Positions 29,943-47,449 of a stretch of 64,000 nucleotides of DNA are shown in pieces (position 1 is the first letter of the stretch; every line of letters starts with the position of its first letter). The position numbers and the translations under genes were made by a program. The notes under the pieces are model-generated. The model saw nothing but the letters and a program-made list of their open reading frames with translations, did not search any database and was not told the DNA's origin. Origin of the DNA: Siphonodentalium dalli (Eukaryota > Mollusca > Scaphopoda > Gadilida > Siphonodentaliidae); NCBI GenBank assembly GCA_032622095.1, contig CP136069.1:84218958-84282957 (forward strand), in the 5' to 3' direction.

Positions 29943-29943
29943 C

Positions 29944-31248: not shown

Positions 31249-31250
31249 GA

Positions 31251-31625
31251 TTAATCAAAAATATCAAGAGCTCGACTGCTAGGATGTTTTTTCGACTGAC
31301 TTTTTCGGCGTTTGACAGCTGAATGATTCATTTTTGAATTCGCTACTCTTTTTCTAGGTTTTTGTCTCGAGTTCAAAATTTGATTTTTAGCTTGTGTGCC
31401 AAAAGATTTTAAAGCTTTTTTACCTTCAGACATCAACGCTTCTTTCGGACTTTTACCTTGATTAATAATTTCATCTGCAACACCAAAAGTGTGTTTTTTC
31501 GCAAGTTGTAAAGCTGTCCGACCAATCGGTTTTAGAAATGGTACAGCAGATCTCATAAGTGATTTGAAAATTGAACCAATACCGTTACCATATTGCCGTG
31601 GTACACCTCTATACACGGGAAACAT
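31251..31625 (-). CDS. basic virion core protein, adenovirus pX-like
   Basis: 124 aa, ATG at 31625. The N-terminus 'QYGNGIGSIFKSLMRSAVPF' is an amphipathic glycine-containing helix region; the C-terminal third is very basic (KPRKRVANSK, KRRKSQSKK). Small basic proteins with this G-x-G-IF start are found between capsid genes in Polintons and adintoviruses and are compared with adenovirus pX/core proteins (recalled). Likely role: DNA condensation in the particle, after cleavage by the protease. Spacing to the neighbours is 2 and 5 nt. Confidence 0.65.
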   Translation of the reverse strand: MFPVYRGVPRQYGNGIGSIFKSLMRSAVPFLKPIGRTALQLAKKHTFGVADEIINQGKSPKEALMSEGKKALKSFGTQAKNQILNSRQKPRKRVANSKMNHSAVKRRKSQSKKHPSSRALDIFD

Positions 31626-31630
31626 TGTTT

Positions 31631-32482
31631 TTAGAACTCCTCTCGTTTTCTGAAATGCAGCTTCGCCAAAGACTTACCACCAATAAACTGAATTGATTCT
31701 CCTGTGTCGCCACTTATATTTACACTAATTTTGTCAAAGTATGACTTTGAAACTGGAACATAATGTAAATTTAAAAATTCATGTTTTACATGTAATCCGT
31801 CGATATCTCTTTTAATTCTGAAAGAAACAACTCGTAAAATTTGTACTTCAACATTTCCAACAATTGTGAAATCGGCAATATCAGAATAAACAAACATTTG
31901 ATTATGACCAACAAACAAATCTACACCAAACGGAAATCTACTATTTGAATAAAAATCTTCAGAAGCGTTTTCAGTTTTGTAACCCAACTTGTGCAAAAGA
32001 CATTGTGGTAATTCAATTCCTAGTTTTGGGATACTTAAACTCTTGCGAATAATTTTCACACGTTTTGTAACTTTTGAGTACTTGATGTGAAATCCGTATT
32101 CGTTTTGCATTGCTTCTCCAAGTGTTTCATCAATTACATCTTGCATTGTATCAAGTAAATCTGTCGCAGAGGTATACGAACCTTCGCGTATCTGTATTTC
32201 AATTGCACGAACGCCATCAGGTCTCGTAAATATCTTTTCTTCAAAACGATTTTGAAGAACAGACAGTATTATTGCATCAGTTGTAATCAAATTGAATTTA
32301 CACGAATCCCCTGTAACATTGTATGTTTCTGAAGGTGTTATCAGTTCGACTAATGCAACTTCCCATTTTTCTTTATCAATTTGAATTGGTTTTGGTAATT
32401 GTACAGTAATACAACATTGAGAATTGTTTGGATACATCACCATTGAACTGTCGCTCGGAATTGTAATGTAGAAAGGATTCAT
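31631..32482 (-). CDS. mCP: penton-like minor capsid protein
   Basis: 283 aa, ATG at 32482. The N-terminus 'NPFYITIPSDSSMVMYPNNS' followed by 'FTVQLPKPI'-like strands ('CITVQLPKPIQIDKEKWEVA') and 'LVELITPSETYNV' is characteristic of the Polinton minor capsid/penton protein, a single jelly roll forming the fivefold vertices. The mid-region 'GYKTENASEDFYSNSRFPFG' fits the same family. Its ATG overlaps the stop of the membrane-protein gene upstream (ATGA). Length is within what I recall for the family. Confidence 0.8.
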   Translation of the reverse strand: MNPFYITIPSDSSMVMYPNNSQCCITVQLPKPIQIDKEKWEVALVELITPSETYNVTGDSCKFNLITTDAIILSVLQNRFEEKIFTRPDGVRAIEIQIREGSYTSATDLLDTMQDVIDETLGEAMQNEYGFHIKYSKVTKRVKIIRKSLSIPKLGIELPQCLLHKLGYKTENASEDFYSNSRFPFGVDLFVGHNQMFVYSDIADFTIVGNVEVQILRVVSFRIKRDIDGLHVKHEFLNLHYVPVSKSYFDKISVNISGDTGESIQFIGGKSLAKLHFRKREEF

Positions 32483-32742
32483 ACTTTCAAAATTTCTGTC
32501 GACTGATTTTTCAAATATTTCAAACGCGGTGTTGGTAAAATGTATCCCAAAGAACTACTGAGTAAAATTAACCACAGTTCGTTATTTTCACTTTGTAAAC
32601 TTAAATGAACAATTGCTGTAGCGATTATACCAACAATTATAATAATTTGTGTAAAATATGTCACTTGATTTTTTGCAATTTTTTCTCCACAGATTTGAAA
32701 TTGTGATGGAGCATCCAGATCAACTGAACCATTTTGAGCCAT
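32479..32742 (-). CDS. two-helix membrane protein of the Polinton capsid cluster
   Basis: 87 aa from the ATG at 32742 (MAQNGSVDLD). A longer upstream reading overlaps the integrase and is rejected. Two hydrophobic helices, 'YFTQIIIIVGIIATAIVHLS' (about 31-50) and 'LWLILLSSSLGYIL' (about 57-70), flank a short polar loop. The segment 'PSQFQICGEKIAKNQVTYFT' resembles a conserved small Polinton protein I recall beside the penton gene. Possibly a membrane component or a release factor. It begins 10 nt after the integrase stop and overlaps the penton start by 4 nt. Confidence 0.65.
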   Translation of the reverse strand: MAQNGSVDLDAPSQFQICGEKIAKNQVTYFTQIIIIVGIIATAIVHLSLQSENNELWLILLSSSLGYILPTPRLKYLKNQSTEILKV

Positions 32743-32752
32743 GTTAAAAGTT

Positions 32753-33847
32753 TTATACCAAATTTGTGGCAGGAATCCAACTGTCAAATTTTTTAGGATA
32801 ACCAGCCCAATGAACTTTAATTTCTCTAACTGATTTACCAGCAACTTTTCTTGAACGTTTACCAACAACTGATTCAATTTCGTAAACTTTATTATCTTTT
32901 ATATGTTGAATTTCTTTACCATAAAATGATCCTGCGATGTTTTCACCATCTAAATCTACTAATTTGTAAGTTAATGGTGTACTTTTACAAACTCTACTAA
33001 TTTTGAAAATTTCTTTTGTCCAATTTGGAAGATATCCTTTATCAAAAGTTCTCTTTGTTTTATTTATTCTAACAAAATCTCCAACTTTCAAGATCTTATC
33101 TTTTTTCGTTTTTAACTTTCCATAAAGATTTCTGGAAACTTCAATTTCATTTTCTCGAGTTACTAAAACTGGTGCCATCTTAATACTTCTATGAAAACTT
33201 TTGTTGTAAGAATTCACAAAATCGTGCAAAACATCATTGTATTTCAAAGTTTGATTATGTGTAAAATATTTCCACATCTTTGTTTTCAATGTCCGTTGAA
33301 AACGTTCAACTATACTTGCTTTTGTCTCTGGATTCTCTGTTGTGAAAAAATGAATTTTCTTAGATTTCAAAAATTGTAAAAATAATTTATTTTTGAATTC
33401 GGAACCTTTGTCAGATTGAAATGAAACTGGTTTTCGTTTTGATGATTTGAGAATTTTCTGAAATGTTTTAACTAAAGTTTTACCAGTTTTGTCTTTAATT
33501 TTTTCAACCCATGCAAATTTTGAGAACACATCAATAACACAAAGTAAATATCTGTAATTGTCATTGTGCTTTTGCAAAGTTTGCAAATCTGCCAAATCAG
33601 CTTGCCACTGAATATCAATTCCTGCAACAATAGTTTTACGTCTGCGAAATTTCCGAACAATTGGTTTGTGCAAAGTATATGTTTTTTGCCATTGTAACCA
33701 TTTTTTAACATCTGAAAGTTTAATTTTGTTATTTGTTTGTTTCGCATTTTTAAAAAGTTGATTTGCTCCACTGAAACCACCAACTTCTTTTGGATTGTAG
33801 TAAATTTCAGTTAGAAGTTTGTCAAATTTTATGTAAGTGGGGACCAT
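32753..33847 (-). CDS. INT: retroviral-type DDE integrase with chromodomain
   Basis: 364 aa, ATG at 33847. The RNase H-fold core has Asp84 in 'QWQADLADL', Asp146 in 'FQSDKGSEF' and Glu181 in 'IVERFQRT', giving the D,D(34-35)E spacing. An SH3-like strand region follows (about 255-300). A C-terminal chromodomain spans about 320-364 with 'VYEIESVVG' and 'VHWAGYPKKFDSWIPATNLV', which probably guides insertion to particular chromatin. It inserts the linear element with 6-bp staggered cuts, matching the TATGTC duplication seen. The start overlaps the end of the 239-aa gene by 19 nt. Confidence 0.93.
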   Translation of the reverse strand: MVPTYIKFDKLLTEIYYNPKEVGGFSGANQLFKNAKQTNNKIKLSDVKKWLQWQKTYTLHKPIVRKFRRRKTIVAGIDIQWQADLADLQTLQKHNDNYRYLLCVIDVFSKFAWVEKIKDKTGKTLVKTFQKILKSSKRKPVSFQSDKGSEFKNKLFLQFLKSKKIHFFTTENPETKASIVERFQRTLKTKMWKYFTHNQTLKYNDVLHDFVNSYNKSFHRSIKMAPVLVTRENEIEVSRNLYGKLKTKKDKILKVGDFVRINKTKRTFDKGYLPNWTKEIFKISRVCKSTPLTYKLVDLDGENIAGSFYGKEIQHIKDNKVYEIESVVGKRSRKVAGKSVREIKVHWAGYPKKFDSWIPATNLV

Positions 33848-34548
33848 TCTTTCAAAATAGATTTTCTGGTTTTAGGAAAACTTTGAGGTGTGAAAATATC
33901 AACTGAACGTTTTCTTGACTTGCCACTGCTAGGAGTTGCATGAGGTGTATGAAACTCATCACCAGTGTGACCTTTTAAATGTCTTTGTATCCACAACCAT
34001 CGATTCCTGTTACCTACATAATCTTGTGGTACATTAAGTTCCCCCAATCCACGTAGGAATGTTTCATAACCAACTGGGTCAAAACCTTTTCGGTGACGAA
34101 CAACATCGTTTATCAAATCAATTATATTTGATCCAGTAACTGTTTCTGTTCCATAAATTAATTGTCCACGATCATCCCATCTAAGTTTAGGATTAGTTGA
34201 CAACAATGTTAAAATTTGTTGTGCTTTACCACGAAGTTTAGATGGAACACTTTCCAATATATGTTCACTCATGTTCCCAAAGTTTTCAGATAACTTTTGT
34301 TCAGGTAAACTGAATTTTGAATTTAAAGATTTTTGTGAAGTTTTCAATTTGTACAAATTTTCTCCAAATAACTGTGACTTTTCTGATTCAGAAATATTTT
34401 TATCATAAACTGATTTCAATTCTTTGTAAGAATCTGAAACATTTGAAATTGCAGGATCAGGAGGTAATTGAGGTTTATTCATTTCTGACATTTTCCATTG
34501 TTTGAAATCTTCCAACATTCTGAATGGTACAATAACCATTTTCTTCAT
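33829..34548 (-). CDS. Polinton protein of unknown function, 239 aa
   Basis: ATG at 34548; a second ATG three codons later is also possible. N-terminal hydrophobic start 'VIVPFRMLEDF', a polar middle, then an ordered C-terminal region 'LRWDDRGQLIYGTETVTGSN' and 'GYETFLRGLGELNVPQDYVG'. Similar 'G(Y/F)..FL..L....VP' proteins recur in Polinton copies in my memory, without a known role. It lies between the 120-aa GG-motif protein and the integrase, inside the late-gene cluster, so a structural or assembly role is plausible. A basic tail (SGKSRKRSVD) could bind DNA. Confidence 0.55.
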   Translation of the reverse strand: MKKMVIVPFRMLEDFKQWKMSEMNKPQLPPDPAISNVSDSYKELKSVYDKNISESEKSQLFGENLYKLKTSQKSLNSKFSLPEQKLSENFGNMSEHILESVPSKLRGKAQQILTLLSTNPKLRWDDRGQLIYGTETVTGSNIIDLINDVVRHRKGFDPVGYETFLRGLGELNVPQDYVGNRNRWLWIQRHLKGHTGDEFHTPHATPSSGKSRKRSVDIFTPQSFPKTRKSILKEWSPLT

Positions 34549-34568
34549 ATTTATTTGAGATTTAGTTT

Positions 34569-34931
34569 TTACAAAATATTTTTAACAACTGCACCTAATG
34601 TTTTGCTAATCAATGGAGCAAGAAATAATAATGGTAAAAAGCCACCTTTTTGATTCAAAATTTTCTTCTTTTGTTGCAAAGGTTTGTTCTTGTCTGCAAG
34701 ATATCTGATATGTTTACGCTTCGAATGTAACTTGCGGTTCTGAGCTTCATTCAGTTTTACATTACCTTTTAAAAGATTTTGACAACATTCTGAAATGCAA
34801 TCCATCACTTGTTTCGGAGCATCGTTGATCATTTTCTTTTTATATGCAGATGGAACTTTACTCATTGCAACAATCAACTCCCCATATTTTTTTATCAGCG
34901 GTATTTTCCGGCTCTTAGTTTTTGAAGGCAT
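34569..34931 (-). CDS. small basic protein with GG motif and hydrophobic tail
   Basis: 120 aa from the ATG at 34931 (a GTG two codons upstream is not needed). Helical basic N-terminal part with a Cys pair (ISECCQN), then 'KKKILNQKGGFLPLLFLAPL' and a hydrophobic C-terminus. The GG junction before a hydrophobic helix resembles the cleavage-site context of adenain-type proteases and membrane-active virion proteins such as adenovirus pVI (inference). The neighbouring 195-aa gene carries the same arrangement, suggesting paralogues. Confidence 0.55.
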   Translation of the reverse strand: MPSKTKSRKIPLIKKYGELIVAMSKVPSAYKKKMINDAPKQVMDCISECCQNLLKGNVKLNEAQNRKLHSKRKHIRYLADKNKPLQQKKKILNQKGGFLPLLFLAPLISKTLGAVVKNIL

Positions 34932-34987
34932 CTTCACAGTCTAAGTAGTTGTCTCAAAATGAGCAGAAAAATTATATGTTTCATCTT

Positions 34988-35575
34988 TTATCTTTTCTGA
35001 TTGAACCATTCTAAAGCTTCGAATGCCGATTTCGATGGATCAGACAACGGCATAAATTTAGAAAATTCAAGATCAATAACTGGTTTTTTTTGTAACGGTT
35101 GATGTTGAGGGTTCTGCTGAGAAGGTATAGGTGTAAATTTAGAATGTTGATTTTGTTGAGTTTGCATCGGTGTAAACTTTGAATGATTTAGAGAAAGCTT
35201 TGTTTTACGTTTAGATTCTTTTTGATTACCCCTTTGTTGTGTTTGCATCAGTGTAATCTTTGAACGTTTTGGAGAAACCTTTGATTTACTTTTAGATTGT
35301 CTACCAGTTTGTTCAAATGAATTTTTCAAAAGACTTCTAATTAAAACTCCCCCAAGGAACCCACTACCACCTCGTTGTAAAATTAATTTGCGTTTTGTTT
35401 CCATATCAGTTGATCGATCAGAGATTTTTTTAAGAACATTTTTATTTCTCTGAAAAAACTTTTTTGTCTGTGATGGTAATTTCCAATCATGTTCAAGAAA
35501 TAATTCAGCTGCAAAAGTGAAGAAATTTATAATTTGTGACAGTTCATCATGACTAAACATCTCGGTGGACGACAT
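34988..35575 (-). CDS. GG-motif basic virion-type protein, 195 aa
   Basis: Start taken at the ATG at 35575 (MSSTEMFSHDELS); the longer reading starts at TTG. N-terminal helical domain to about residue 70, then 'KLILQRGGSGFLGGVLIRSL', a counterpart of the 'ILNQKGGFL' motif in the downstream 120-aa protein. Next comes a basic, Gln-rich region with three repeats of a 'SKFTPMQTQQ'-like segment. Charge and repeats suggest a DNA-binding, disordered tail. Probably a virion core or scaffold precursor processed by the protease (inference). Confidence 0.5.
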   Translation of the reverse strand: MSSTEMFSHDELSQIINFFTFAAELFLEHDWKLPSQTKKFFQRNKNVLKKISDRSTDMETKRKLILQRGGSGFLGGVLIRSLLKNSFEQTGRQSKSKSKVSPKRSKITLMQTQQRGNQKESKRKTKLSLNHSKFTPMQTQQNQHSKFTPIPSQQNPQHQPLQKKPVIDLEFSKFMPLSDPSKSAFEALEWFNQKR

Positions 35576-35608
35576 GGTTCTAAAATGAAAAAGTAACAAC
35601 AACTGAAT

Positions 35609-36259
35609 TTATACTTTTGAATAAATGACAGGACCTCGGTCATTAGCTGTCAACCATTTATGGAAAATATCAGTTCTAATTCGCAAATAATTTTCTGTTC
35701 TAGGATGAAAATCTACTAAAATATATCCATGATTTATTGAAGTTGCATCTTCGTATGCTTGTTTCAAATGATTGGTTTGCATTTGATGAGCCAAAACTTT
35801 TATTTGATTTTTATCTCGAACGCTTTGAAATAAAACCATGTAGTGTGCATTCAAACTTATAGTTCTGCTACTTTTTGATTTTTGGAACATGTTTTGAGTA
35901 ATGTAAATTATTGAAGCATTTCGATGATGACCTTTTCTAGTAAACCAAAGCATTATTTTGTCTTCATCTTGTTCCCCCATCATGTCATCGAAAACAACAA
36001 GATGAGGAAATGATTTATCTGATACAATTTCCTCATCATCGTCTGGAATACCATCGATAAACTCAACGTTATCAATTTCTTTTATACGATTGTATGTGTC
36101 TTGCCATTCTTTGTAACACCAAACTATTTTCTTTGGTGGTGTTTGGAATAAATCGTGTTTAAATTCAATAACTTTTTTAACAAATTCTGTTTTACCTGAT
36201 CCACTAGGTCCGCTGATAAAGAAATTACACGGATGTTGGAAAAGTAAAGATTCTTCCAT
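35609..36259 (-). CDS. ATP: FtsK/HerA (A32)-type genome packaging ATPase
   Basis: 216 aa, ATG at 36259. Walker A 'GPSGSGKTEF' at residues 17-26, Walker B 'HLVVFDDMM' at 86-94, and a downstream 'SIIYITQNMF' sensor-like strand. This is the compact packaging ATPase shared by Polintons, virophages and nucleocytoplasmic viruses; it would pump the element's DNA into preformed capsids. Length matches the short Polinton forms. It lies between the 216-aa unknown (33 nt) and the GG-motif gene. Confidence 0.9.
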   Translation of the reverse strand: MEESLLFQHPCNFFISGPSGSGKTEFVKKVIEFKHDLFQTPPKKIVWCYKEWQDTYNRIKEIDNVEFIDGIPDDDEEIVSDKSFPHLVVFDDMMGEQDEDKIMLWFTRKGHHRNASIIYITQNMFQKSKSSRTISLNAHYMVLFQSVRDKNQIKVLAHQMQTNHLKQAYEDATSINHGYILVDFHPRTENYLRIRTDIFHKWLTANDRGPVIYSKV

Positions 36260-36292
36260 GTTGTCACTTTGATGTCTAATCAGAGAGTGAAC

Positions 36293-36943
36293 TTAACGAC
36301 GTGTGAATTTAGTTCTTAAAGAGAAATCTCCAAAGCTGTAAATATTTCCATACATTTCAATAATCCAATTATTATAGTCTTCTATTCTTCTGTACTTTGT
36401 TCTGTAAATATAAAAATCATCCCCCAAAATGTTTTGAATTTTTGCATGTGTTGACATTTTTTTTGTTAACAAATACCCATAGATCCTAGGAGCTGATTCA
36501 AAAGTTCCCCCAGCAAGAGGAAAATGATCTTCATACTTTGTATAATGAATATAGTCATGTTCATCAAAAGTTCCTAAATCTAAATCTAAATGGGGTTGAT
36601 CACCACCAAATATCCAAAAATCAGATATTTTTTCAATGAGAAAAAATGTTTTGAATTTAATAAATGATTCAATATATTTTTGAGAGAAATGAGAAGATAT
36701 ACTTGACTCAAGATAGGCCAATCTCTGTAAACATTCGCCGACATCACAGCATCGTAGTATTGCTTTCTTTTCTCTTTCAAACCAGACTTCTTGTAATTCC
36801 TTCTTTATCTCTGGAATAAGCGTTGACTGTGCCACCAAATATCCATAAATCTTCTCAGCAATTTCTGGAGGTACTACTCCTGCCAACATCTTGACATGAA
36901 ATGACTCAACATCTCCATCCGTATGGATATGTATGAATACCAT
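36293..36943 (-). CDS. unknown Polinton protein, 216 aa
   Basis: Start set at the ATG at 36943; a longer reading to 36997 begins with GTG and lies within polymerase coding sequence. It overlaps the 3' end of the polymerase gene by 38 nt. Mixed alpha/beta composition, two adjacent Cys residues (ILRCCDVGECLQRL) and aromatic-rich segments 'DFWIFGGDQPHLDLDLGTFD' and 'YNNWIIEMYGNIYSFGDF'. I recognise no domain. Position directly after polymerase suggests an early or replication-linked role, for example terminal-protein or single-strand binding; this is speculation. Confidence 0.5.
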   Translation of the reverse strand: MVFIHIHTDGDVESFHVKMLAGVVPPEIAEKIYGYLVAQSTLIPEIKKELQEVWFEREKKAILRCCDVGECLQRLAYLESSISSHFSQKYIESFIKFKTFFLIEKISDFWIFGGDQPHLDLDLGTFDEHDYIHYTKYEDHFPLAGGTFESAPRIYGYLLTKKMSTHAKIQNILGDDFYIYRTKYRRIEDYNNWIIEMYGNIYSFGDFSLRTKFTRR

Positions 36944-39900
36944 TGACGAGTTTTCGTTTTGTGTACACCGATCTGAAAGTTTTGGTTTGACACTCACTAA
37001 TCAGTTGATGGTTCTTTTGTCTTTTAATTCTGGAAGGATACTCAACAACAGTTTTGAAATTTTCACGATCATTAACACATTGTACCATTGTTTCAAAATT
37101 AACTTTTTGACTTGTGCTGTAATCAAGAGTGATACCTTTTACCTTACATTTGGTGTATCTTCTCCCATCTTTGATGTATTCATATCCGTAGTTCTTTGGC
37201 CCAAGTCCAACAAATTTGACAATCTTTGCATCTGGATGTTCGTCGCTCCATTTCCCCAATCTTCCTTCGATAGTTTTGATGTTCTTCTTTGATGGATCAC
37301 TGACATACATACAGCTGTCTGTATCAAAATACAGCACTCTATCTCCAAGTTTTTTAAAAACTTTATACAATTGTAATCTTGCATACGCTGTAACAAAAGA
37401 AGCAACAACAACATTTGCTGAATGATGAGGTTCAATATTATCTAAAATATCAACATAATTTACCAGAATGAATTTGTCACCATCAAGAAGTGTAACATTT
37501 TGAACAATTATATTGTTACTAGTAAGCAATTCAAAATAACGTGATGGTTTATCCACATACTCTGTTTTTGACATAAGATTTCTTTGTGCATTCTTACCCC
37601 ATATACAATTAATCATAATTTTAGATATTTGGCGTTTTCCTGGATTCTTCTCGATGTTCTCCAATTTTATACCCTCAGCTGCATAATAATCCTGTACAAA
37701 CTTTTGCTTCTGTTCTTCTGTCTCAACACCAAATGGATAACCACTACATTCCTGTTTGATCTTTAGATGTTTGTCGATATAGGATTTGTATATTTCATCT
37801 GTCCAATCTGTCCAATGCCAAATTTGGTACACATCAAGTATTTTGTAGCCAACATCCATTGCTTTGAATAATTCTGGCGTGGTCCACACTCCGGTTATAG
37901 CTCGATCTTCTTCTGAATGGTTACATGCCTCGTTCTCATTGATGGCACAAGTGTTGCACAGAGTAAAAACCATTTTCTTGTTACAATGAATCGGTAGAAC
38001 TGGAATATACAATTTCGATGGTGGTAAAATTGTACATTTAACAAGCCCCGCATAGTCTCTAATGTGTTCTTGATCGATCTGCTCTTGGCTCAAAATTTCT
38101 GGATGTCCAACAGGGTAGAATTTATATTTGTTGCAAAATGGATACAACGAACACACATCGATGAACTTGATTTCTTTTGTGGAATCTTGATCAATTTCCT
38201 CGTACAATTTGATGGCATTTGTACGTCCACCAAACAATGCTTCTCTTGGCAAAATGGGGTCTCGATGTTTGTAGAAAGATTCCATTTGTTGTTTGAATTT
38301 CACATCCGATTTCATTCTTTCGTCGATCTGATGCTCCCAAATTGATTCAACTCTGTAACCAAGACTTTCCAGTTCATCTTTCTTCTGTTGAGTTCTTGTA
38401 TATAATTCTTCCATGGTGAGCATCGTATAGGGATTCTTGTATTGTCTGTTGTTGTAACATTTTGGACATCCATGAAACAGACATCCATTCATCTCAAAAA
38501 CTGTTCTTGTGGCTTCCTCATATCCATCGACGTAGTGTCCACCAATCTTGATTTCTCCTCCATTCAAAGCATGCTTGATTGTTATCATACGTGACAATGA
38601 TATATGTTGAAGCCAACGTATCGCTTTCATGGAATAGTTTTTAGCACATGGGTATCCACCATCTGGAATGATTCCAATTGTTTTCTCTGGCATTGAATTC
38701 TTCCTCCATGCCAAATTGCAAACTTGCGCCAATGTTATTGACTCAATGAACGGGTCAATCTGTTCTGTTTCCAATATGTATTTCCTGAATTTTCCACATC
38801 CACGGCGAAGAATATCCACGTCTGATTTGCAGTACTTCTCCATCTCTTCTTGGAAGTTGAATATCACGTAATTTTCTATTTTCTCATTGTACCATTCAAA
38901 GAATTTCTCTCGATTTTCCACGCTCATCATGTCTGGTTTGTAGTAATCAGAAGCCAAGTAATGTCCAATGTAATTTTGAAACTTTGGTGAATTCGCCCAA
39001 TGTGGAAAGTGTCCTTTCGCCATCTCATTCAGCTGAAAAGTTTGTGGAAACTTTGAAAGCGGCATCATCAGAAAACTCAGAGAATCAATAACTTTCACGC
39101 TGTTGCATTTTAAACTGAGAATCTTGTTTCCATTCATGATCAGTTCTGGTTTATGAATTCCACTTTGTATGAGTGCTTGAAGTAGAAACTGTGCATCGTA
39201 TCCCTGAGCATTATGTGCTATTGCAACACATCCTTTGTGATCTTGGTGGAATAACCAGTTTGTGAAGTCTGTTAAAACGTTGTCACCCTTGAATACAAAT
39301 TCTCTGGAATCCGGTCCGCATGTTTCACATTTTTCTTCGATTGGTTTGCACATGCAATCTCCACAAGCGGTATGTGCAACACAGAAGTTTGGAATATGAA
39401 CACCTGTGTCTTGTCTGCATTCAAAGTCAAAGAATACATATGGAATCTTTGCAGGTTTCTTTTCCGGTGATTCATATTTTGGAATGTAGCACCTGTGATC
39501 TGCTTCAACGATTTCTTTGCAATGTTTGCATTTCTTCAACCCCGCACATATATGTCTGCTTGATTTATTGATGAGAATTTCTTCATCACAATTGTTGCAT
39601 AGTTGAACCAAATCACATATTTTTCTTTTCTGTTTTCCTTCCGTCTTCAAATGGTTGTCGAAACATGATTTACTTCTGAATGATCGTCGACACGTTCTAC
39701 ACTTCACCCAATTTGTGAAATTACACGGTGTCAATGACCAGCATGCACAAACAAATCTGCATCGATGATCGCCACGCATATGGAATCCAATGTCGCAGAA
39801 TTCGCAGTAGTAGCTGGTGCCTAGAAATCCTTTGATTGATGTTATGGTGTCGAAGTGATTGTTGTTGTAGTAGATGTGTACACATTTGCTATCCGAACAC

Positions 39901-41015
39901 ATTTCTGCAGGTTCAAATAGAAATCCAGCGCCAGCAAATTCATTGTGAATTTTCACAACATATTCTGGATACAATATTTCTTGAATCTTGTGGAACTCAT
40001 TGATACTGCAAACTGTATCGTGTGGAATGCCAGCACGGTTGAGTAGATTTTTTGCTGCATCTGTTTGTGCTGTGTATATTGATTGTCTTATTCTTTTCCA
40101 TATCTTTGACCAGCACGCAGATCCATCACTATCTGCCTTACACATTCCGACGACAATAGATCTTGCCATACACATAACATCATCAGCATTTTCAATCCGG
40201 ACAATACTTCTTTTTACTTTTGTCAGCTTGTTCTTGTCTGCAAATGGTCCATAATGTAGTGAGTGTCGTGTACCACCTTCCGGAATATCTGTAACGAAGA
40301 TTTCGAAATTGAGTGCACCGTCATGAATTGTAAAGGCTGCATTTGATTGAACCACATTTTGAATATTATCCATGAGTGTCCCACCATTCAATTCACTGGC
40401 TTTTGTGAATGGAATGAAAATGCTCATATCAAGTCCTGGATGATTTATCGTAACTCTGATTCTTGTCTTCTCATTTGCTGAACATTTCTGTTTCAATTCT
40501 TCTGTCAACTTCTCAAATATCTCTGGAATGTTTTCGATTGGATCTGTAAATTTCTCGAATTTCACACCAAATTGTCGTGATGCTGATTTAAATTTTCTGG
40601 AAAATTTCTCCGAGTTCAGCTCCATTTTGAAATATTTTGTTGGATTGAACACAACACGCTCTCTAGCCAGACTTCTCTTTCTCTTCCCACCAATTTCTCT
40701 ATTCTGTCTTCGACCGCGTCCAATCTGCCCATCACTAGAACTTTCTTCACTTTCTGCCCTATCAGTTTCCATATCGCTCTCTTCACTTTCTGCCTCATCA
40801 GTTTCCATATCGCTCTCTTCACTTTCTGCCCTATCAGTTTCCATATCGCTCTCTTCACTTTCTGCCTCATCAGTTTCCATATCGCTCTCTTCACTTTCTA
40901 CCTTATCAGTTTCCATATCGCTCTCTTCAATAACTGCAGGCCTTGGTCTTTTTCTAACAATATCTTCTTCGCTGGCGGCGTCGTCTGAAACAGGTCTTTT
41001 AATTCTCTTAAACAT
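36906..41015 (-). CDS. POLB: protein-primed family B DNA polymerase
   Basis: 1369 aa from the ATG at 41015; an 8-codon upstream extension starts at TTG and is rejected. N-terminus: basic nuclear-localisation-like 'KRIKRP' and 'RKRPRP', then an acidic region of repeated SDMETD-type units (about 32-92). A Cys/His-rich region lies at about 400-515. 3'-5' exonuclease motifs: FDFE (529-532), HNAQGYDAQF (601-610), YCKSDVDIL (728-736). The 'NGCLFHGCPKC' motif (843-853) is typical of Polinton polymerases. Polymerase motifs: DVCSLYP (953-959), KIMINCIWGK (1132-1141), YFDTDS (1229-1234). It replicates the linear element by protein priming at the termini. All catalytic residues are intact. The first 32 residues are shared with the divergent zinc-knuckle gene. 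Confidence 0.95.
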   Translation of the reverse strand: MFKRIKRPVSDDAASEEDIVRKRPRPAVIEESDMETDKVESEESDMETDEAESEESDMETDRAESEESDMETDEAESEESDMETDRAESEESSSDGQIGRGRRQNREIGGKRKRSLARERVVFNPTKYFKMELNSEKFSRKFKSASRQFGVKFEKFTDPIENIPEIFEKLTEELKQKCSANEKTRIRVTINHPGLDMSIFIPFTKASELNGGTLMDNIQNVVQSNAAFTIHDGALNFEIFVTDIPEGGTRHSLHYGPFADKNKLTKVKRSIVRIENADDVMCMARSIVVGMCKADSDGSACWSKIWKRIRQSIYTAQTDAAKNLLNRAGIPHDTVCSINEFHKIQEILYPEYVVKIHNEFAGAGFLFEPAEMCSDSKCVHIYYNNNHFDTITSIKGFLGTSYYCEFCDIGFHMRGDHRCRFVCACWSLTPCNFTNWVKCRTCRRSFRSKSCFDNHLKTEGKQKRKICDLVQLCNNCDEEILINKSSRHICAGLKKCKHCKEIVEADHRCYIPKYESPEKKPAKIPYVFFDFECRQDTGVHIPNFCVAHTACGDCMCKPIEEKCETCGPDSREFVFKGDNVLTDFTNWLFHQDHKGCVAIAHNAQGYDAQFLLQALIQSGIHKPELIMNGNKILSLKCNSVKVIDSLSFLMMPLSKFPQTFQLNEMAKGHFPHWANSPKFQNYIGHYLASDYYKPDMMSVENREKFFEWYNEKIENYVIFNFQEEMEKYCKSDVDILRRGCGKFRKYILETEQIDPFIESITLAQVCNLAWRKNSMPEKTIGIIPDGGYPCAKNYSMKAIRWLQHISLSRMITIKHALNGGEIKIGGHYVDGYEEATRTVFEMNGCLFHGCPKCYNNRQYKNPYTMLTMEELYTRTQQKKDELESLGYRVESIWEHQIDERMKSDVKFKQQMESFYKHRDPILPREALFGGRTNAIKLYEEIDQDSTKEIKFIDVCSLYPFCNKYKFYPVGHPEILSQEQIDQEHIRDYAGLVKCTILPPSKLYIPVLPIHCNKKMVFTLCNTCAINENEACNHSEEDRAITGVWTTPELFKAMDVGYKILDVYQIWHWTDWTDEIYKSYIDKHLKIKQECSGYPFGVETEEQKQKFVQDYYAAEGIKLENIEKNPGKRQISKIMINCIWGKNAQRNLMSKTEYVDKPSRYFELLTSNNIIVQNVTLLDGDKFILVNYVDILDNIEPHHSANVVVASFVTAYARLQLYKVFKKLGDRVLYFDTDSCMYVSDPSKKNIKTIEGRLGKWSDEHPDAKIVKFVGLGPKNYGYEYIKDGRRYTKCKVKGITLDYSTSQKVNFETMVQCVNDRENFKTVVEYPSRIKRQKNHQLISECQTKTFRSVYTKRKLVNGIHTYPYGWRC

Positions 41016-41306
41016 TTTTGTCTTGAGTTTTGTCAGCAAAAAATATTGCGACTGGCTTCTTCAGAGTTGAAGTGTAAAGTGTAGAATTACACCTGCTTTT
41101 ATAGCATTCGCGATGAAAATGCTATAAAAGCAGATGTAATTCTACACTTTACACTTCAACTCCGAAGAAGCCAGTCGCAATATTTTTTGCTGACAAAACT
41201 CAAGACAAAAATGTTTAAGAGAATTAAAAGACCTGTTTCAGACGACGCCGCCAGCGAAGAAGATATTGTTAGAAAAAGACCAAGGCCTGCAGTTATTGAA
41301 GAGAGC
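40920..41306. promoter_or_regulatory. 387-bp palindromic bidirectional promoter and shared 5' coding region
   Basis: Two ~190-bp inverted arms centred at 41113 are almost identical, with a small unpaired centre (cgcgatga) and very few mismatches. Each arm holds a TATAAAAG box (41123-41130 plus; 41096-41103 minus), then about 80 bp of leader, then the first 32 codons of a gene. Polymerase B runs left and the zinc-knuckle gene runs right. Identity ends abruptly at gagagc/gctctc. Third codon positions match as well, pointing to gene conversion or DNA-level constraint. Confidence 0.85.
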
Positions 41307-41813
41307 TATATTGAGCTACATAAAGAAGATTCAAAAAAATCTACACAGCCACAGACTAGAAAAATTCAAGATAATCTTGTCGAAATGAGACAGATCTCTG
41401 CCAATTTGTTTAAACTTTGTAACAAAATGCAATGGCAAGAGAAACAAGAGAAAAACAAAGCTGATAAAAATTGGAAACCGCCATATGGTTACTGTTACAA
41501 ATGCGGACAAGAATCCCATTGGTCCTTCCATTGTAAAACAGATTTCGGCGACAAAAAAAATGTGAAAACTATACAAAAATGTCTACAAGCAGTAACAATA
41601 CAAGAACAAAATGCAGATATCAAAACTGAAGAGATGTCTACAACATCAGATGTTTTCAAACAACCCCGACCTGTTGATCCTACGAATGATTCACAGAACA
41701 AATCTGAAGATAAAAATCCAGATTTTGAAAATTCCAAGAAAACTTCCAAGAAAAAGAAGCTGAGACCATTCTACATTCCAAAAACAGATAAACGAATCGA
41801 TACAAACATTTGA
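41211..41813 (+). CDS. CCHC zinc-knuckle protein sharing polymerase N-terminus
   Basis: 200 aa from the ATG at 41211 (the upstream TTG reading is rejected). Residues 1-32 equal the start of polymerase B and include 'KRIKRP' and 'RKRPRP', probable nuclear signals. A single retroviral Gag-type zinc knuckle, 'CYKCGQESHWSFHC' (C-x2-C-x4-H-x4-C, about residues 94-107), follows a coiled, polar helix. The C-terminal half is Lys/Asp/Ser-rich and ends in a basic stretch (KKTSKKKKLRPF). Likely a nuclear single-strand nucleic-acid-binding protein, perhaps assisting replication together with the polymerase (inference). A 3' AATAAA lies near 41830. Confidence 0.7.
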   Translation: MFKRIKRPVSDDAASEEDIVRKRPRPAVIEESYIELHKEDSKKSTQPQTRKIQDNLVEMRQISANLFKLCNKMQWQEKQEKNKADKNWKPPYGYCYKCGQESHWSFHCKTDFGDKKNVKTIQKCLQAVTIQEQNADIKTEEMSTTSDVFKQPRPVDPTNDSQNKSEDKNPDFENSKKTSKKKKLRPFYIPKTDKRIDTNI

Positions 41814-41828
41814 AAATTATGTTGTGTG

Positions 41829-41918
41829 AATAAATTATGAATTGAACAATCGTGTTTTGTTTTTTTCAGCTATGAAAGAGTAACCTTTTGGGGAATGTGG
41901 GTGGCCCTGAAAAGGGCC
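41829..41918. repeat. shared flank Z, copy 1
   Basis: About 90 bp closely matching 43577-43669: 'gaataaa.tat.aattgaacaatcgtg', 'tttttcagc.atgaaagagta' and 'accttttgggg' occur in the same order. It ends in the histone-type hairpin of the following minus-strand gene and holds a plus-strand AATAAA for the preceding plus-strand gene. Confidence 0.75.
41903..41918 (-). terminator. histone-type 3' stem-loop for the 120-aa gene
   Basis: Minus strand: AAAAC-GGCCCT-TTTC-AGGGCC-ACCCACA, 19 nt past the stop at 41938. Six-base stem, UUUC loop, A-rich 5' flank and ACC 3' flank all fit the replication-dependent histone element. The downstream 'CCCCAAAAGGTTACTCTTTC' is kept in the second cassette and may take the place of the U7-binding element. 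Confidence 0.75.
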
Positions 41919-41937
41919 GTTTTTTCTTTTCCAGAAT

Positions 41938-42300
41938 TCATAAAAATTCTGCCAAATCAGGATATATCCCGTTGGGATTAATTGTCACAGACCAAGTAGG
42001 ATTTGATCTGTGCGCCGCAGCAGCCTGAGCGAAGCTGTCAATTGCTGCATTGCACAGATCTTTCTTCGAGATCTGTGACAAGATCTCCACGAGATCAAGA
42101 TTGCTTGATTCTTGATTCTTGATTGCTTGATCGCATACTTCAGGCGATGGTCGTCGCCGAGCCAGAAAATCTCTTAGCATCTGTTTCTGTACCACCTTTT
42201 GTTCAGGAGAATCCTGCCATTTCCTATATGTTCTTATTTTCGTCTCCTCTGAATCTCTCTTCCTCCATAACTTCTTGATAAATTTCTTTAACGACGGCAT
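41938..42300 (-). CDS. cassette 1 minus gene, basic 120-aa protein
   Basis: ATG at 42300. Strongly basic amphipathic start 'MPSLKKFIKKLWRKRD', a helical Arg-rich middle (FLARRRPSP), and a neutral C-terminus with an Ala-rich helix (SFAQAAAAH) ending 'PDLAEFL'. No family recognised. A TATA-like box (TATAAAAATA on the minus strand, about 42332-42341) lies about 35 bp upstream. It shares promoter and 3' end architecture with the gene at 43692 but not its sequence. Confidence 0.55.
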   Translation of the reverse strand: MPSLKKFIKKLWRKRDSEETKIRTYRKWQDSPEQKVVQKQMLRDFLARRRPSPEVCDQAIKNQESSNLDLVEILSQISKKDLCNAAIDSFAQAAAAHRSNPTWSVTINPNGIYPDLAEFL

Positions 42301-43196
42301 AATGAATGAAGTTCACTGAAAAAGTGAAAATATTTTTATACATTTGACACGGGCGTCAATGAAATCACATGTCGCGTTGGCGTTAAAATTGACAAATGTT
42401 TCCTGACGTTGTGTTTTTTCAGAACCGGATCAACATGCATATTTTTCTTGATCATTATTGCATAGCGATCAAACAAATGTTTTTAATTTCGTTAGATCAT
42501 TATCTATTATTTGGTACACATGATTGATATATTTGTTACCTCGTTAGGCAAATATGGAATGTTTTTCTAGTTTTTGTTTTTGGAATTGTACATATTTTAT
42601 ACATAAAACTGAACACAAGATTGTTACACGGGCGTCAATGAAATCACATAATACTTTGGCGTTAAAATTGACAAATATTTCCTGACGTTGTGTTTTTTCA
42701 GAACCGGATCAACATGCATATTTTTCTTGATCATTATTGCATAGCGATCAAACAAATGTTTTTAATTTCGTTAGATCATTATCTATTATTTGGTACACAT
42801 GATTGATATATTTATTACCTCGTTAGGCAAATATGGAATGTTTTTCTAGTTTTTGGTTTTGGAATTGTACATATTTTATACATAAAAACTGAACACAAGA
42901 AACATACTGAACATTTTTCTTCATCATTACAATTGATAACTTTACTTGGTCATCGTTTATGAACGAAGATGAATTCATATGTTAAAACATCTTAATTAAT
43001 TGCGTATACTATCATGAATTTAATCTATAACATATCGAAATAGTAAAACTAACAGATAATGCACTGTAAAGAAACACAACGCCCGGAAACATTTGTCATT
43101 TTTAATGCCAACGTGACATGTGATTTCTCTACCGCCCGCGCAATCGTGATATATGTTCAAACACGGCCGTGAACAATTTTTATTCTGCATTCAAAG
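42301..43196. promoter_or_regulatory. cassette 1 bidirectional promoter with 279-bp duplication
   Basis: The region between divergent genes. A block starting 'acacgggcgtcaatgaaatc' at 42347 is repeated at 42626 (period 279 bp) and again in cassette 2 at about 44238. An inverted counterpart lies near 43075-43160 (arms 'aaatcacatgtc..gttggc' against 'gccaacgtgacatgtgattt'). The left TATA is at about 42332-42341 (minus) and a gatatatg box lies at about 43147 (plus). The plus-gene leader ends attcaaagATG, as in cassette 2. Confidence 0.7.
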
Positions 43197-43385
43197 ATGT
43201 CCGAAATCCCCGAACCGTTGATGTCTATACTAAGAGGAACGATAGGGCTAACACCCCAGATAATGCGGGCCGGACACGCAAAAGAAGTAACCGCCAGTGC
43301 AAAACTGGTTATGCAAATATGCAAAAAACAACAACGTTGGAACAAAAGCAAAAGTCTCAAAAGAAAATCGTGGCGTGAACTTTGA
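43197..43385 (+). CDS. cassette 1 plus gene, 62-aa basic protein
   Basis: ATG at 43197, chosen because its leader (attcaaagATG) equals that of the cassette 2 plus gene at 44805. A competing frame at 43169-43378 lacks this. Hydrophobic/helical first half (PLMSILRGTIGLTPQIM), then a Lys/Arg-rich tail (KSKSLKRKSWREL). Not recognised. Two histone-type hairpins follow 13 nt after the stop. It could be a small nuclear or antagonist peptide; no function is claimed. Confidence 0.5.
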   Translation: MSEIPEPLMSILRGTIGLTPQIMRAGHAKEVTASAKLVMQICKKQQRWNKSKSLKRKSWREL

Positions 43386-43398
43386 TGCCATACAAAAC

Positions 43399-43442
43399 GG
43401 CCCTTCTCAGGGCCAAAAACAAAAACGGTCCTTTTCAGGACC
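43399..43442 (+). terminator. tandem histone-type 3' stem-loops
   Basis: First hairpin 43399-43414: AAAAC-GGCCCT-TCTC-AGGGCC-AAAA. Second 43427-43442: AAAAAC-GGTCCT-TTTC-AGGACC-AACCAA. The second differs by a compensated C-to-T/G-to-A base pair, which argues that the RNA stem is under selection. A purine-rich tract 'caaaaagaaaaac' follows 14-26 nt later, like a histone downstream element. Confidence 0.75.
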
Positions 43443-43653
43443 AACCAATTTTTTCAAAAAGAAAAACTTTTAGCATTGCTTAAGAACTAATAATGTTCTT
43501 TGTACCCTATGTTTTGTTTTGAAAAAATCACGCCACGAATAATTTAAAACAAAATATACTTGCAAATATTTGTTGTTGAATAAAATATAAATTGAACAAT
43601 CGTGTTTTTGATTTTTTCAGCAATGAAAGAGTAACCTTTTGGGAAATGTGTGT
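43443..43653. repeat. spacer and shared flank Z, copy 2
   Basis: After the downstream element of cassette 1 comes about 110 bp without signal, then block Z (43577-43669) as described at 41829. No gene. Confidence 0.6.
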
Positions 43654-43669
43654 GGCCCTGAAAAGGGCC
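43654..43669 (-). terminator. histone-type 3' stem-loop for the 162-aa gene
   Basis: Minus strand: AAAAC-GGCCCT-TTTC-AGGGCC-ACACACA, 22 nt beyond the stop codon at 43692. Same stem and loop as at 41903 and 45289; downstream 'CCCAAAAGGTTACTCTTTC' is conserved with cassette 1. Confidence 0.75.
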
Positions 43670-43691
43670 GTTTTAAAATTATCATCTGACT

Positions 43692-44180
43692 TTAACATCG
43701 TTTTGTGTTTTTCTTATATCTTGACATATCTTTCCCATGAGAACCAATAGCTTTTGCGAATTCATCACTTTTCTCTGTATCTTTAGATTCTTTACAAGGA
43801 AGACGAAATCTGACTTTTGTCTCAGTAGAAGGCTTCATGATACTTTTAGGTTCTTTTTCTTTCGCCGCCAATATTTTTTCTTTTTTGATCTGTTTCTGTT
43901 CTTTCGATCTCTGAACATCATGAACCCTGATTGGTATATCTATCTCTTCTGCAACGAAACGAAGATTCACTTTTACTTCTTGATGCGTTACTTGTGTTTT
44001 CACGTCAATATCCCTGCGAAGACATCTCAGTTCATCTAAAATCGCTTTTAAAATGAGTGTATCACCACCTATAGTCATTGTCGTATTAGCTTGGCCTGTT
44101 GACTGTGGTGCCGCATATGTATTCTGTACAACAGGATTACTGTATATCTCACTCTGAAGAAATTCTGTTAACGGATCCAT
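43692..44180 (-). CDS. cassette 2 minus gene, Lys-rich protein with SILK/RVxF-like motifs
   Basis: 162 aa from the ATG at 44180 (MDPLTEFLQS). The longer reading from 44234 starts inside the TATA box (ATGTATAAAAAT) and is rejected. Thr/Gln-rich N-terminus, a short helical region (LILKAILDELRCLRRDID), then a Lys/Glu-rich segment. Residues 113-116 'SIMK' and 122-125 'KVRF' resemble, in the usual order and close spacing, the SILK and RVxF docking motifs of protein phosphatase 1 regulators. That is a motif match only; short motifs occur by chance. No family recognised. Confidence 0.55.
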   Translation of the reverse strand: MDPLTEFLQSEIYSNPVVQNTYAAPQSTGQANTTMTIGGDTLILKAILDELRCLRRDIDVKTQVTHQEVKVNLRFVAEEIDIPIRVHDVQRSKEQKQIKKEKILAAKEKEPKSIMKPSTETKVRFRLPCKESKDTEKSDEFAKAIGSHGKDMSRYKKNTKRC

Positions 44181-44804
44181 CTTTGATAGCAATGCAATGT
44201 AACGTTGATCAAATTCGAAAATATTTTTATACATTTGACACGGGCGTCAATGAAATCACATGTCGCATTGACGTTAAAATTGACAAATGTTTCCTGGCGT
44301 TGTGTTTTTTCAGAGACGGATCAGCATTCATATTTTTCTTGACCATTATTGCATAGCGATCAAACAAATGTTTTTTATTTCGTTAGATCATTATCTATTA
44401 TTTGGTACACATGATTGATATATTTGTTACCTCGTTAGGCAAATATGGAATGTTTTTCTAGTTTTTGGTTTTGGAAATGTACATATTTTATACATAAAAC
44501 TGAACACAAGAAAACATACTGAACATTTTTCTTCATCATTACAATTGATAACTTTACTTGGTCATCGTTTATGAACGAAGATGAATTCATATGTTAAAAT
44601 ATCTTAATTAATTGCATATACTATCATGAATTTAATCTATATCATATCGAAATGGTGAAACTAACAGATAATGCACTGAAAAGAAACACAACGTCAGGGA
44701 GCATTTGTCATTTTTAACGTCAAAGTATTATGTGCTTTCTCTACCGCCCGCGCAATCGTGATATATGTTCAAGACGGATCTTCAGACTTATTCTACATTC
44801 AAAG
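44181..44804. promoter_or_regulatory. cassette 2 bidirectional promoter
   Basis: Closely matches cassette 1: the 'gggcgtcaatgaaatcacat' block at 44242, 'cttgaccattattgcatagcg', 'aacatactgaacatttttct' and 'accgcccgcgcaatcgtgat' all occur in the same order. Minus TATA (TATAAAAATA) at 44222-44232; plus box gatatatg near 44760. It has one copy of the 279-bp block instead of two. Confidence 0.7.
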
Positions 44805-45269
44805 ATGACTGCTGTAAACATAACAGATCTTGACGAGATAATGGCCGGTGGGGTATACTGTAAAGCAGTGTACGGTGAAGAAATATCGCTGTTTTGGAGG
44901 GCACTCAGCCTCGGGGTTTACGGGACGACCGATGGATGGATGATTCTGAGAGATGCGGCAGTTGACCTGTACTACGCAGAGAGTGACGAACTTGGTGCGT
45001 CGGCACAAGATTTACGGCGCACACCACTTTTGGCTGAATCAAGATTGATGGTTGAATTAGCGGCGACTGTTATACAGCGACCTATCGTCATGTTTGATGC
45101 TACCAAAGGCGGCTACAAATCAACACCAAGATTCAAGTCATCAATAACTCTAGTGTGGATCCCACACGTTTGCCACGAGCATTATTGTGAATGCGAAATA
45201 TGGATGAGGCGAGGAGACAAATCAATTGAAGTTTTGGCGAACAAAGAAGTTCAATGTGGCGGATTCTAA
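44805..45269 (+). CDS. OTU-like protein, catalytic Cys position replaced by Ser
   Basis: 154 aa from the ATG at 44805. The pattern 'EEISLFWRALSLGVYG' (25-40) followed by 'LRDAAVDLY' parallels the OTU signature DGNCLFRALS..LYG....LR..; Ser28 stands where the nucleophilic Cys is expected. 'MVELAATVIQRPIVMFD' (82-98) matches the conserved E-LxALAxxLxRPIxVF helix-strand. 'HEHYCEC' (124-130) supplies the HY motif with the catalytic His (His126). OTU proteases remove ubiquitin or ubiquitin-like modifiers. Ser instead of Cys suggests a binding-only pseudo-enzyme, or that a different residue acts. Possible host-defence antagonist (inference). A histone-type hairpin follows 19 nt after the stop. Confidence 0.55.
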   Translation: MTAVNITDLDEIMAGGVYCKAVYGEEISLFWRALSLGVYGTTDGWMILRDAAVDLYYAESDELGASAQDLRRTPLLAESRLMVELAATVIQRPIVMFDATKGGYKSTPRFKSSITLVWIPHVCHEHYCECEIWMRRGDKSIEVLANKEVQCGGF

Positions 45270-45288
45270 ACTATAACAAAAATAAAAC

Positions 45289-45304
45289 GGCCCTTTTCAG
45301 GGCC
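45289..45304 (+). terminator. histone-type 3' stem-loop for the OTU-like gene
   Basis: Plus strand: AAAAC-GGCCCT-TTTC-AGGGCC-ACCAAA, beginning 19 nt after the stop. It is followed at about 12 nt by 'cgaaaagaaaaactc', a purine-rich tract like the U7-binding histone downstream element. An AATAAA overlaps the 5' flank (45281-45286). This is the closest of all copies to the canonical histone 3' end. Confidence 0.8.
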
Positions 45305-45384
45305 ACCAAATATTCGAAAAGAAAAACTCTTGATTGCTAATTGATATTTTCCAAAGTGAGATTTTCCTTTTGAAAAAAAATAAT

Positions 45385-45582
45385 TCTAAGTCCATTTTCA
45401 TTTTTTCGATCAGAAATGTCACATCAATGACAGGAACATCTATCCTCAGGGTGGGAACTATGGCCCAGTACCCCCCAGACATGGGCACTATGGCCCAGTA
45501 CCCCCCAGACATGGGCACTATGGCCCAGTACCCCCCAGACATGTCTGGGGGGTACTGGGCCATAGTGCCCACCATTACTACT
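45385..45582. repeat. Polinton right terminal inverted repeat
   Basis: 198 bp, inverse of the left end from tctaagtcc to the terminal attactact. It has three inner and one outer copies of the 30-bp unit in inverted arrangement, so it is shorter than the left repeat by unit number only. Followed by TATGTC (45583-45588). Confidence 0.9.
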
Positions 45583-47433: not shown

Positions 47434-47449
47434 GGCCCTGAAAAGGGCC
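47434..47449 (-). terminator. histone-type 3' stem-loop in MULE copy 2
   Basis: Identical to 26134-26149: AAAAA-GGCCCT-TTTC-AGGGCC-ACACAA on the minus strand, about 690 bases downstream of the transposase stop. Confidence 0.5.

Follow-up and report, generated by a model that had tools for sequence, protein, structure and literature searches.

Why would genes that encode no recognizable histone end in the 3' stem-loop of replication-dependent histone mRNAs, and what could a mobile element obtain from such an ending? The question is raised by a 64,000-nt stretch of the Siphonodentalium dalli genome (GCA_032622095.1, CP136069.1:84,218,958-84,282,957, forward strand), hereafter the window, in which all positions are counted. 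The element at issue and its main core genes, the latter all without a histone hairpin, are as follows.

28356..45582, unstranded, Polinton with terminal inverted repeats, 17,227 bp
29944..31248, minus, capsid-like gene
32753..33847, minus, integrase with chromodomain (Pfam rve, PF00665, 2e-12; Chromo, 2e-05)
35609..36259, minus, A32-type packaging ATPase (Pfam Pox_A32, 8e-09)
36906..41015, minus, PolB gene (DNA_pol_B_2, Pfam PF03175, E 8e-36)

The element is a Polinton. It combines PolB, the rve integrase, the ATPase and a C5-type protease (Pfam Peptidase_C5, 0.0005, just short of the Pfam cut-off) with inverted terminal arms (28356-28391/45547-45582 and 28496-28656/45376-45536), AG...CT ends, a Polinton trait, and a 6-bp target duplication (TATGTC, 28350-28355 and 45583-45588); an empty site lies near 49647, where the flanking repeat occurs a second time. 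PolB is presumably of the protein-primed type known for the family. The name capsid-like is provisional: the gene is 38-46% identical, by piece, to genes of L002-L004, which had been detected using a motif from that same gene, and its structure model (confidence 31) is too poor for judging a double jelly-roll fold.

The same element holds four intronless accessory genes, A to D, arranged as two divergent pairs (A/B and C/D) around bidirectional promoter regions.

41938..42300, minus, accessory gene A, 120 aa, no Pfam match, pN/pS 0.35 (8 intact copies)
42326..43160, unstranded, A/B promoter region with direct repeats D1 and D9, the shared element in either orientation and an incomplete extra copy
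43197..43385, plus, accessory gene B, 62 aa, no Pfam match, pN/pS 0.43 (7 intact copies)
43692..44180, minus, accessory gene C, 162 aa when read from the probable start, no Pfam match, pN/pS 0.46 (7 intact copies)
44217..44772, unstranded, C/D promoter region, 96% and 93% identical to the A/B region
44805..45269, plus, accessory gene D, 154 aa, no Pfam match, pN/pS 0.44 (9 intact copies), homologue in a second family

The proteins of A-D match no Pfam family even at a cut-off of E 10, none being recognized as a histone, and those of A and C show no similarity to each other by BLASTP. In gene C, a further ATG lies upstream at 44234, overlapping a TATA-like box. An assignment of gene D as an OTU protease was dropped (no Pfam family matched at E 10 or below, structure model confidence 36), and its PDB hits, on ribosomal protein L3 with E values no better than 0.05, are weak and were put down to chance. 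One promoter element is common to all four genes: it occurs at 42361-42403 (minus) and 43085-43127 (plus) of the A/B region, with the extra copy at 42640-42682 (minus), and at 44252-44294 (minus, 2/43 mismatches) and 44697-44739 (plus, 10 mismatches) of the C/D region. A histone origin of this promoter was considered and dropped, as the best of 20 comparisons, in which it was aligned locally with the promoters of five host histone genes, had a score that 6/300 shuffles reached and is not significant.

At their 3' ends, the four genes carry five hairpins, scored here with the Rfam histone 3' stem-loop model RF00032 (curated threshold, 34 bits).

41903..41918, minus, stem-loop of gene A, 40.2 bits (match 41879-41923, minus), same in 31/31 alignable copies
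43399..43414, plus, first stem-loop of gene B, UCUC loop, 21.4 bits, sub-threshold, GGCCCTTTTCAGGGCC in 28/30 other copies
43427..43442, plus, second stem-loop of gene B, GGTCCT/AGGACC, 37.1 bits (match 43422-43468, plus), same in 27/30 alignable copies
43654..43669, minus, stem-loop of gene C, 40.1 bits (match 43630-43674, minus), same in 30/31 alignable copies
45289..45304, plus, stem-loop of gene D, 41.8 bits (match 45284-45330, plus), same in 24/25 alignable copies

The first-pass annotation had placed five such hairpins here, each in the sense of the preceding gene and 13-22 nt past its stop; the hairpins are present as described, and the spacing applies to the first hairpin of every gene (A 19, B 13, C 22 and D 19 nt), the second of B lying at 41 nt. 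In the covariance search, four of the five pass the curated threshold, and the first B hairpin falls below it probably because the next hairpin begins 12 nt later. Its UCUC loop appears to be private to the copy in the window, since GGCCCTTTTCAGGGCC is found in nearly all other readable copies. The window has seven strict self-complementary matches against 0.03 expected from first-order Markov shuffles, and a hairpin lies within 300 nt past the stop of 4/4 accessory genes, compared with 0/13 other Polinton genes. Two further strict hairpins, at 26134-26149 and 47434-47449 (both minus), lie outside the Polinton in a duplicated MULE-bearing repeat.

A palindrome may also act at the level of DNA, as a recombination or replication site aiding the movement of cassettes, and it is true that similarity between cassettes stops near the hairpins and that the flanking MULE repeat has hairpins with no gene end close by. 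However, a DNA palindrome would need neither the gene-sense loop and the preceding AAAAC, found in all five hairpins, nor the purine element that follows four of them, which makes such a role extremely unlikely.

The purine element resembles that of the histone genes of the host, and it is clearest after the two plus-strand genes, as had been suggested from the first reading of the sequence.

43455..43470, plus, purine-rich downstream element of gene B, candidate U7 site, AAAAAGAAAAAC versus host AAAAAGATAAAC
45315..45329, plus, purine-rich downstream element of gene D, candidate U7 site, aligned with host histone 3' ends

The H2A, H2B and H4 genes of S. dalli end in the same 16-nt hairpin as the Polinton genes, with similar flanks, and gene D matches host histone 3' ends at 85-86% over 58-60 nt, from the hairpin through the purine element. 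The element of A and C, AAAAGGTTAC, is less like that of the host than those of B and D. A search for the host U7 gave no match, and none was obtained in control genomes either.

Poly(A) signals are distributed unevenly among the four genes. Beyond the D stop, AATAAA follows after 11 nt (45281-45286), just ahead of the hairpin, and beyond the B stop it follows after 193 nt, which allows for polyadenylated forms. The transcripts might then be mainly polyadenylated at these sites, with the hairpin serving stability or translation or being used only in certain cells; histone 3' regions carrying hairpin and poly(A) signal together have been described for C. elegans (PMC1924863). Such dual use seems rather unlikely here, as A and C lack AATAAA and ATTAAA within 300 nt past the stop and the hairpin is followed by a purine element as in host histone genes.

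How widely is this arrangement kept? Another 32 copies of the Polinton were ascertained through the polymerase, that is, independently of the hairpin, and in these the hairpins are the same in 140/147 alignable cases. Seven are changed, one of which retains pairing through G-U, and broken hairpins are also found in L013, L016 and L022. The stem GGTCCT/AGGACC, proposed earlier as a compensatory change, is real and recurs in most copies of the second B hairpin, and pairing is likewise kept in the variants GGTTCT/AGGACC, GGCTCT/AGGGCC and GGTCCT/AGGGCC. It should be noted that agreement among copies is weak evidence on selection, because the copies are young; many are near-identical, and polymerase frames are open in 24/34 scored copies. 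Across the whole genome, the strict hairpin pattern has 2,958 matches, compared with 105 for the reversed control.

In some relatives, the cassette holds a true histone. The statement of the first-pass annotation that no histone gene is present nearby stands for the window, where tblastn with human histones found none, but not for related copies of the same Polinton, which have H4. At ten loci, the Polinton promoter is joined to a host-derived H4 gene. The Polinton H4 is 94-96% identical in DNA to a host gene array and keeps its stem-loop. The three H4 copies read have derived changes in common (one extra codon and one Gly-to-Ile) and an intact stem-loop. H4 has been captured from the host into the Polinton cassette in one sub-lineage.

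This recent capture in the same cassette, together with unrelated frames flanked by similar promoters and 3' ends, would suit the idea that the hairpins are functionless leftovers of histone genes that had been captured and whose coding parts then gave way to other frames. A second, distant family speaks against it: there, a hairpin with one stem mismatch follows the homologue of D (34-42% identity, E 7e-13), another follows a C-like gene (weak homology, E 0.012), and the purine element is also present, despite other non-coding flanks too diverged for alignment. Given this retention, and pairing mostly preserved in the stem variants, the remnant origin is improbable. Absence of the hairpin from related Polintons, which would have counted against the histone signal, was not observed. 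Among viral sequences, IMG/VR scans with the genes for polymerase, capsid and ATPase retrieved no relative, and neither the exact hairpin with its flanks nor the capsid-motif pattern had a match; a degenerate hairpin pattern hit one phage-like contig, where Rfam finds no histone stem-loop, and was judged chance. In GTDB genomes, the capsid motif retrieved three animal-type Polinton fragments inside bacterial MAGs; the stretches examined, being the capsid side without the accessory genes, have no strict hairpin.

The proposal that Polinton accessory genes carry the histone mRNA 3' element is therefore well supported, by Rfam score, sense position, host-like purine element, other copies and the distant family. 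Judging from these sequence features, A-D probably constitute an accessory regulon that relies on host SLBP/U7 histone 3'-end formation to yield tail-less, S-phase-coupled mRNA. The element is a recently active animal Polinton in which each accessory gene has the shared promoter element at its start and the host-type stem-loop and purine element at its end. Its A-D transcripts would most likely be bound by host SLBP and cut by the U7 machinery, leaving them without poly(A) tails and made and kept chiefly in S phase, presumably the time of Polinton replication or integration, and the core genes, which lack the hairpin, would undergo ordinary polyadenylation. Promoter and 3' end together may act as a cassette that receives different reading frames, with host H4 in one sub-lineage. 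More tentatively, this could be an animal virus or transposon with a histone-mimic regulon, in which the portable cassette confers an S-phase, poly(A)-independent programme on any gene it holds, and the altered host H4 possibly dresses or manipulates newly replicated element DNA.

If non-histone Polinton genes do use the signal, a transposon-virus would have a concrete route for tracking S phase and evading poly(A)-based control, and A-D would be a natural non-histone substrate set for SLBP and U7. The number of such hairpins in the genome might also burden the host SLBP system. With many near-identical copies and polymerase frames largely open, expression could be sought in the living animal.

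With respect to known systems, the element resembles Polinton/Maverick elements and adintoviruses in PolB, rve integrase, A32-type ATPase, C5-type protease, capsid-like gene, terminal inverted repeats and 6-bp target duplication. It differs from them in its accessory regulon, whose genes end in a histone-type signal, and in the H4 of one sub-lineage, neither of which is described for Polintons in the literature searched, including a term search in PMC11071308. Stem-loop and downstream element have been described as hallmarks of replication-dependent histones (PMC5011920), and the accessory genes share with that mRNA 3' end (RF00032; SLBP, U7 snRNP) the 16-nt stem-loop, the A-rich sequence before and ACC-type sequence after it, the purine-rich downstream element, weaker in A and C, the short 3' UTR and the lack of introns; unlike replication-dependent histone genes, they are non-histone genes of a transposon-virus and have AATAAA near two of the four. 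Histone relatives in an animal DNA virus group are also on record in adomaviruses, whose 'Histoid' genes are described as remotely similar to histones (PMC11071296), whereas the Polinton H4 has 94-96% DNA identity to a host array and retains its stem-loop.

Five histone-type 3' hairpins were claimed in the first-pass annotation to follow the accessory genes of the Polinton, and all five are present as stated, by Rfam cmscan and by sequence check:

28356-45582: Polinton, TATGTC on either side
29944-31248, minus: capsid-like gene
36906-41015, minus: PolB gene
41903-41918, minus: hairpin of gene A
41938-42300, minus: accessory gene A
43197-43385, plus: accessory gene B
43399-43414 and 43427-43442, plus: first and second hairpins of gene B
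43654-43669, minus: hairpin of gene C
43692-44180, minus: accessory gene C
44805-45269, plus: accessory gene D
45289-45304, plus: hairpin of gene D

Four of these hairpins exceed the curated threshold of the Rfam histone 3' stem-loop model (RF00032), whereas the first B hairpin falls below it (21.4 bits versus 34). The window holds six matches above threshold in total, the other two lying in the flanking duplicated repeat. The first hairpin begins 19, 13, 22 and 19 nt after the stops of A, B, C and D, respectively. Under strict self-complementarity, the pattern GGYYYUHHUHARRRCC occurs seven times in 64 kb versus 0.03 times in shuffles, and a strict match within 300 nt after the stop is found for none of the 13 other Polinton genes. 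The two stem-loops of the flanking MULE-bearing repeat (26134-26149 and 47434-47449, both minus) resemble each other in sequence and are in sense with the MULE-like frame, ~690 nt beyond its stop in the intact repeat copy.

This repeat has two direct copies, the first broken by the Polinton and the second representing the empty site, from which the limits of the element are derived. The duplicated segment (25322-28355, 45583-45882 and 46622-49941) could be a true tandem duplication or two haplotypes juxtaposed by assembly. Pfam search identifies PolB, an integrase with a chromodomain and an A32-type ATPase, with a C5-like protease slightly below the cut-off. The capsid-like gene is piecewise 38-46% identical to genes on Polinton fragments from three bacterial MAGs, retrieved by a motif taken from the window's own capsid-like gene; their protease and penton-like genes match as well. 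These fragments (L002, L003 and L004) are of animal type, two coming from mussel and tubeworm symbionts, and are probably host contamination. Through a 212-nt inverted repeat (40897-41329, arms 95% complementary), PolB and the zinc-knuckle gene that diverges from it (41211-41813, plus) have a near-identical N-terminus and promoter, and the Polinton termini (28367-28580 and 45452-45573) carry 30-bp tandem repeats that are also self-inverted. In the host genome (2.23 Gb, 9 contigs), a polymerase search, with the best 34 of 4,140 first-look candidates scored, yields at least 34 full-length copies at 98-100% identity, and 24 of the 34, the window's own counted, are without a stop. Given this identity and these open frames, recent activity is inferred; the family appears young and is possibly active.

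The accessory genes, located between PolB and the right end, form two divergent pairs, A/B and C/D, whose promoter regions are 93-96% identical, with an extra partial copy at 89%. A 43-nt element lies upstream of A (0 mismatches), B (3), C (2) and D (10), recurs in the partial promoter copy, and is absent elsewhere in the window at up to 16 mismatches. Because the A and C proteins show no similarity by BLASTP, yet their 3' regions (94% over 69 nt, 77% over 57 nt) and promoters are alike, promoter and 3' end can be read as a cassette around differing reading frames. Searched against Pfam up to E 10, none of the four genes gives a match. Averaged over every pairing of intact copies (8, 7, 7 and 9 of A, B, C and D, broken copies left out), pN/pS is 0.35, 0.43, 0.46 and 0.44, which suggests constraint on the genes; in some pairs of close copies, pN reaches pS. 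LxCxE is a motif used by some viral oncoproteins on Rb. Its sole match among 17 proteins scanned, LPCKE in gene C, is seen in seven aligned intact copies and absent from the second-family homologue; it may be due to chance.

Host histone genes were compared through a genome search in which the best 75 of 409,530 candidates were scored: 12 loci, the top five included, are Polinton copies, and 63 belong to tandem arrays on contigs C5 and C8, in which stretches L017, L024 and L025 contain genes for H4, H2B and H2A, all ending in the stem-loop. The host histone 3' end reads aaacGGCCCTTTTCAGGGCCacccaaattttccaaaaagataaacta and that of D aaacGGCCCTTTTCAGGGCCaccaaatattcgaaaagaaaaact, with 85-86% identity over 58-60 nt by BLASTN, the purine element included. 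The purine element of A and C, AAAAGGTTAC, matches the host less well.

The hairpins recur in related Polintons. Among the first 13 stretches, the 10 Polinton ones were picked by hairpin and form a biased sample; the count was therefore made on copies found through the polymerase, with the accessory region taken from 32 of the 34 (the window and one stretch already examined left aside). There, 140 of 147 alignable hairpins are unchanged (A 31/31, first B 28/30, second B 27/30, C 30/31, D 24/25), those not alignable numbering 1, 2, 2, 1 and 7 of 32; in three inspected copies of the seven lacking the D hairpin, gene D is there and the stretch stops within it. One of the seven changed hairpins is still paired; broken or altered hairpins also occur in L013, L016 and L022, and altered ones still paired by G-U in L008, L019, L020 and L023. 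Since the copies are young, this agreement shows a trait of the active family and does not imply strong selection.

Hairpins are also present in more distant stretches. Among five isolated hairpins checked, those on L058 and L061 lie in pieces of the same Polinton and those on L059, L060 and L062 in a different element, which we infer to be a second Polinton family, although these stretches are short and show no polymerase. Downstream of a D homologue on L064 and L062 (34% over residues 70-154, 42% over 16-41, E 7e-13) stands a hairpin whose stem has a single mismatch, and in all three stretches a C-like frame precedes a perfect hairpin. The L060 frame matches C weakly (tblastn, E 0.012, 22.7%) and the L062 frame has no match up to E 1; an IDIPI-x-VH motif common to C and the C-like frame, judged by eye, speaks for the likeness as well. 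The gene that follows in L059 and L060 has its match in window gene 36293-36943 (E 3e-8 and 8e-8). By BLASTN, the only non-coding sequence to align besides hairpin and purine element is 34 nt about one hairpin start. The second family is our best evidence that the hairpin is maintained by selection.

Genome-wide, the pattern GGYYYTTTTMARRRCCAM has 2,958 occurrences versus 105 for its reversed control, and by hand count 79 of the first 100 listed places (part of contig C1) make up 17 clusters, each of three to five hairpins spaced as in the accessory region. By extrapolation, most such hairpins in this genome would be Polinton-borne.

In L057, which belongs to the polymerase-chosen set of 32, H4 takes the place of genes A to C and of the zinc-knuckle gene, with H4 and D divergent about the Polinton promoter and a stem-loop on each. 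Its H4 DNA is 78% identical to a C5 array H4 and 94-96% to an H4 of L065, a separate host tandem array (C9:143.80-144.27 Mb) encoding canonical H4 and the likely source; besides the coding region, the likeness takes in ~60 nt of leader and, on the 3' side, the gene end up to and including the purine element, but not the promoter. H4 usually tolerates little change in sequence, unlike that of L057, which has 12 substitutions, 10 of them protein-changing, and one inserted codon. A promoter-H4 junction search (best 40 of 1,199 candidates scored) gave 10 matches spanning the whole query (85-100% identity) and 30 to the promoter part only; at nine of the 10 loci, a match to H4 that extends through the stem-loop is seen as well. 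Because L057 and the two further copies read, L066 and L067, share the derived inserted codon and a Gly-to-Ile change in their DNA, one capture followed by spread with the Polinton is concluded; the 16-nt H4 hairpin is identical in all three, and L066 has a 2-nt deletion besides. The capture is recent relative to the second-family split and is therefore an unlikely source of the older hairpins; it demonstrates a route by which a hairpin can enter a Polinton.

No description of histone-type 3' ends in Polintons was found in the full-text literature searched, in which subscription papers are thinly covered. An AATAAA immediately before the D hairpin and another beyond B count against a histone-type programme, while the sequence parts of the histone 3'-end signal are present on the accessory genes in host style. 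A U7 snRNA search gave no match here or in any control genome. On this reading, the accessory genes would run on the SLBP/U7 histone 3'-end programme and the core genes off it. For histone genes, it is established that stem-loop and downstream element together bring in SLBP and U7 snRNP to yield tail-less, S-phase-tied mRNA (PMC5011920, PMC1924863).
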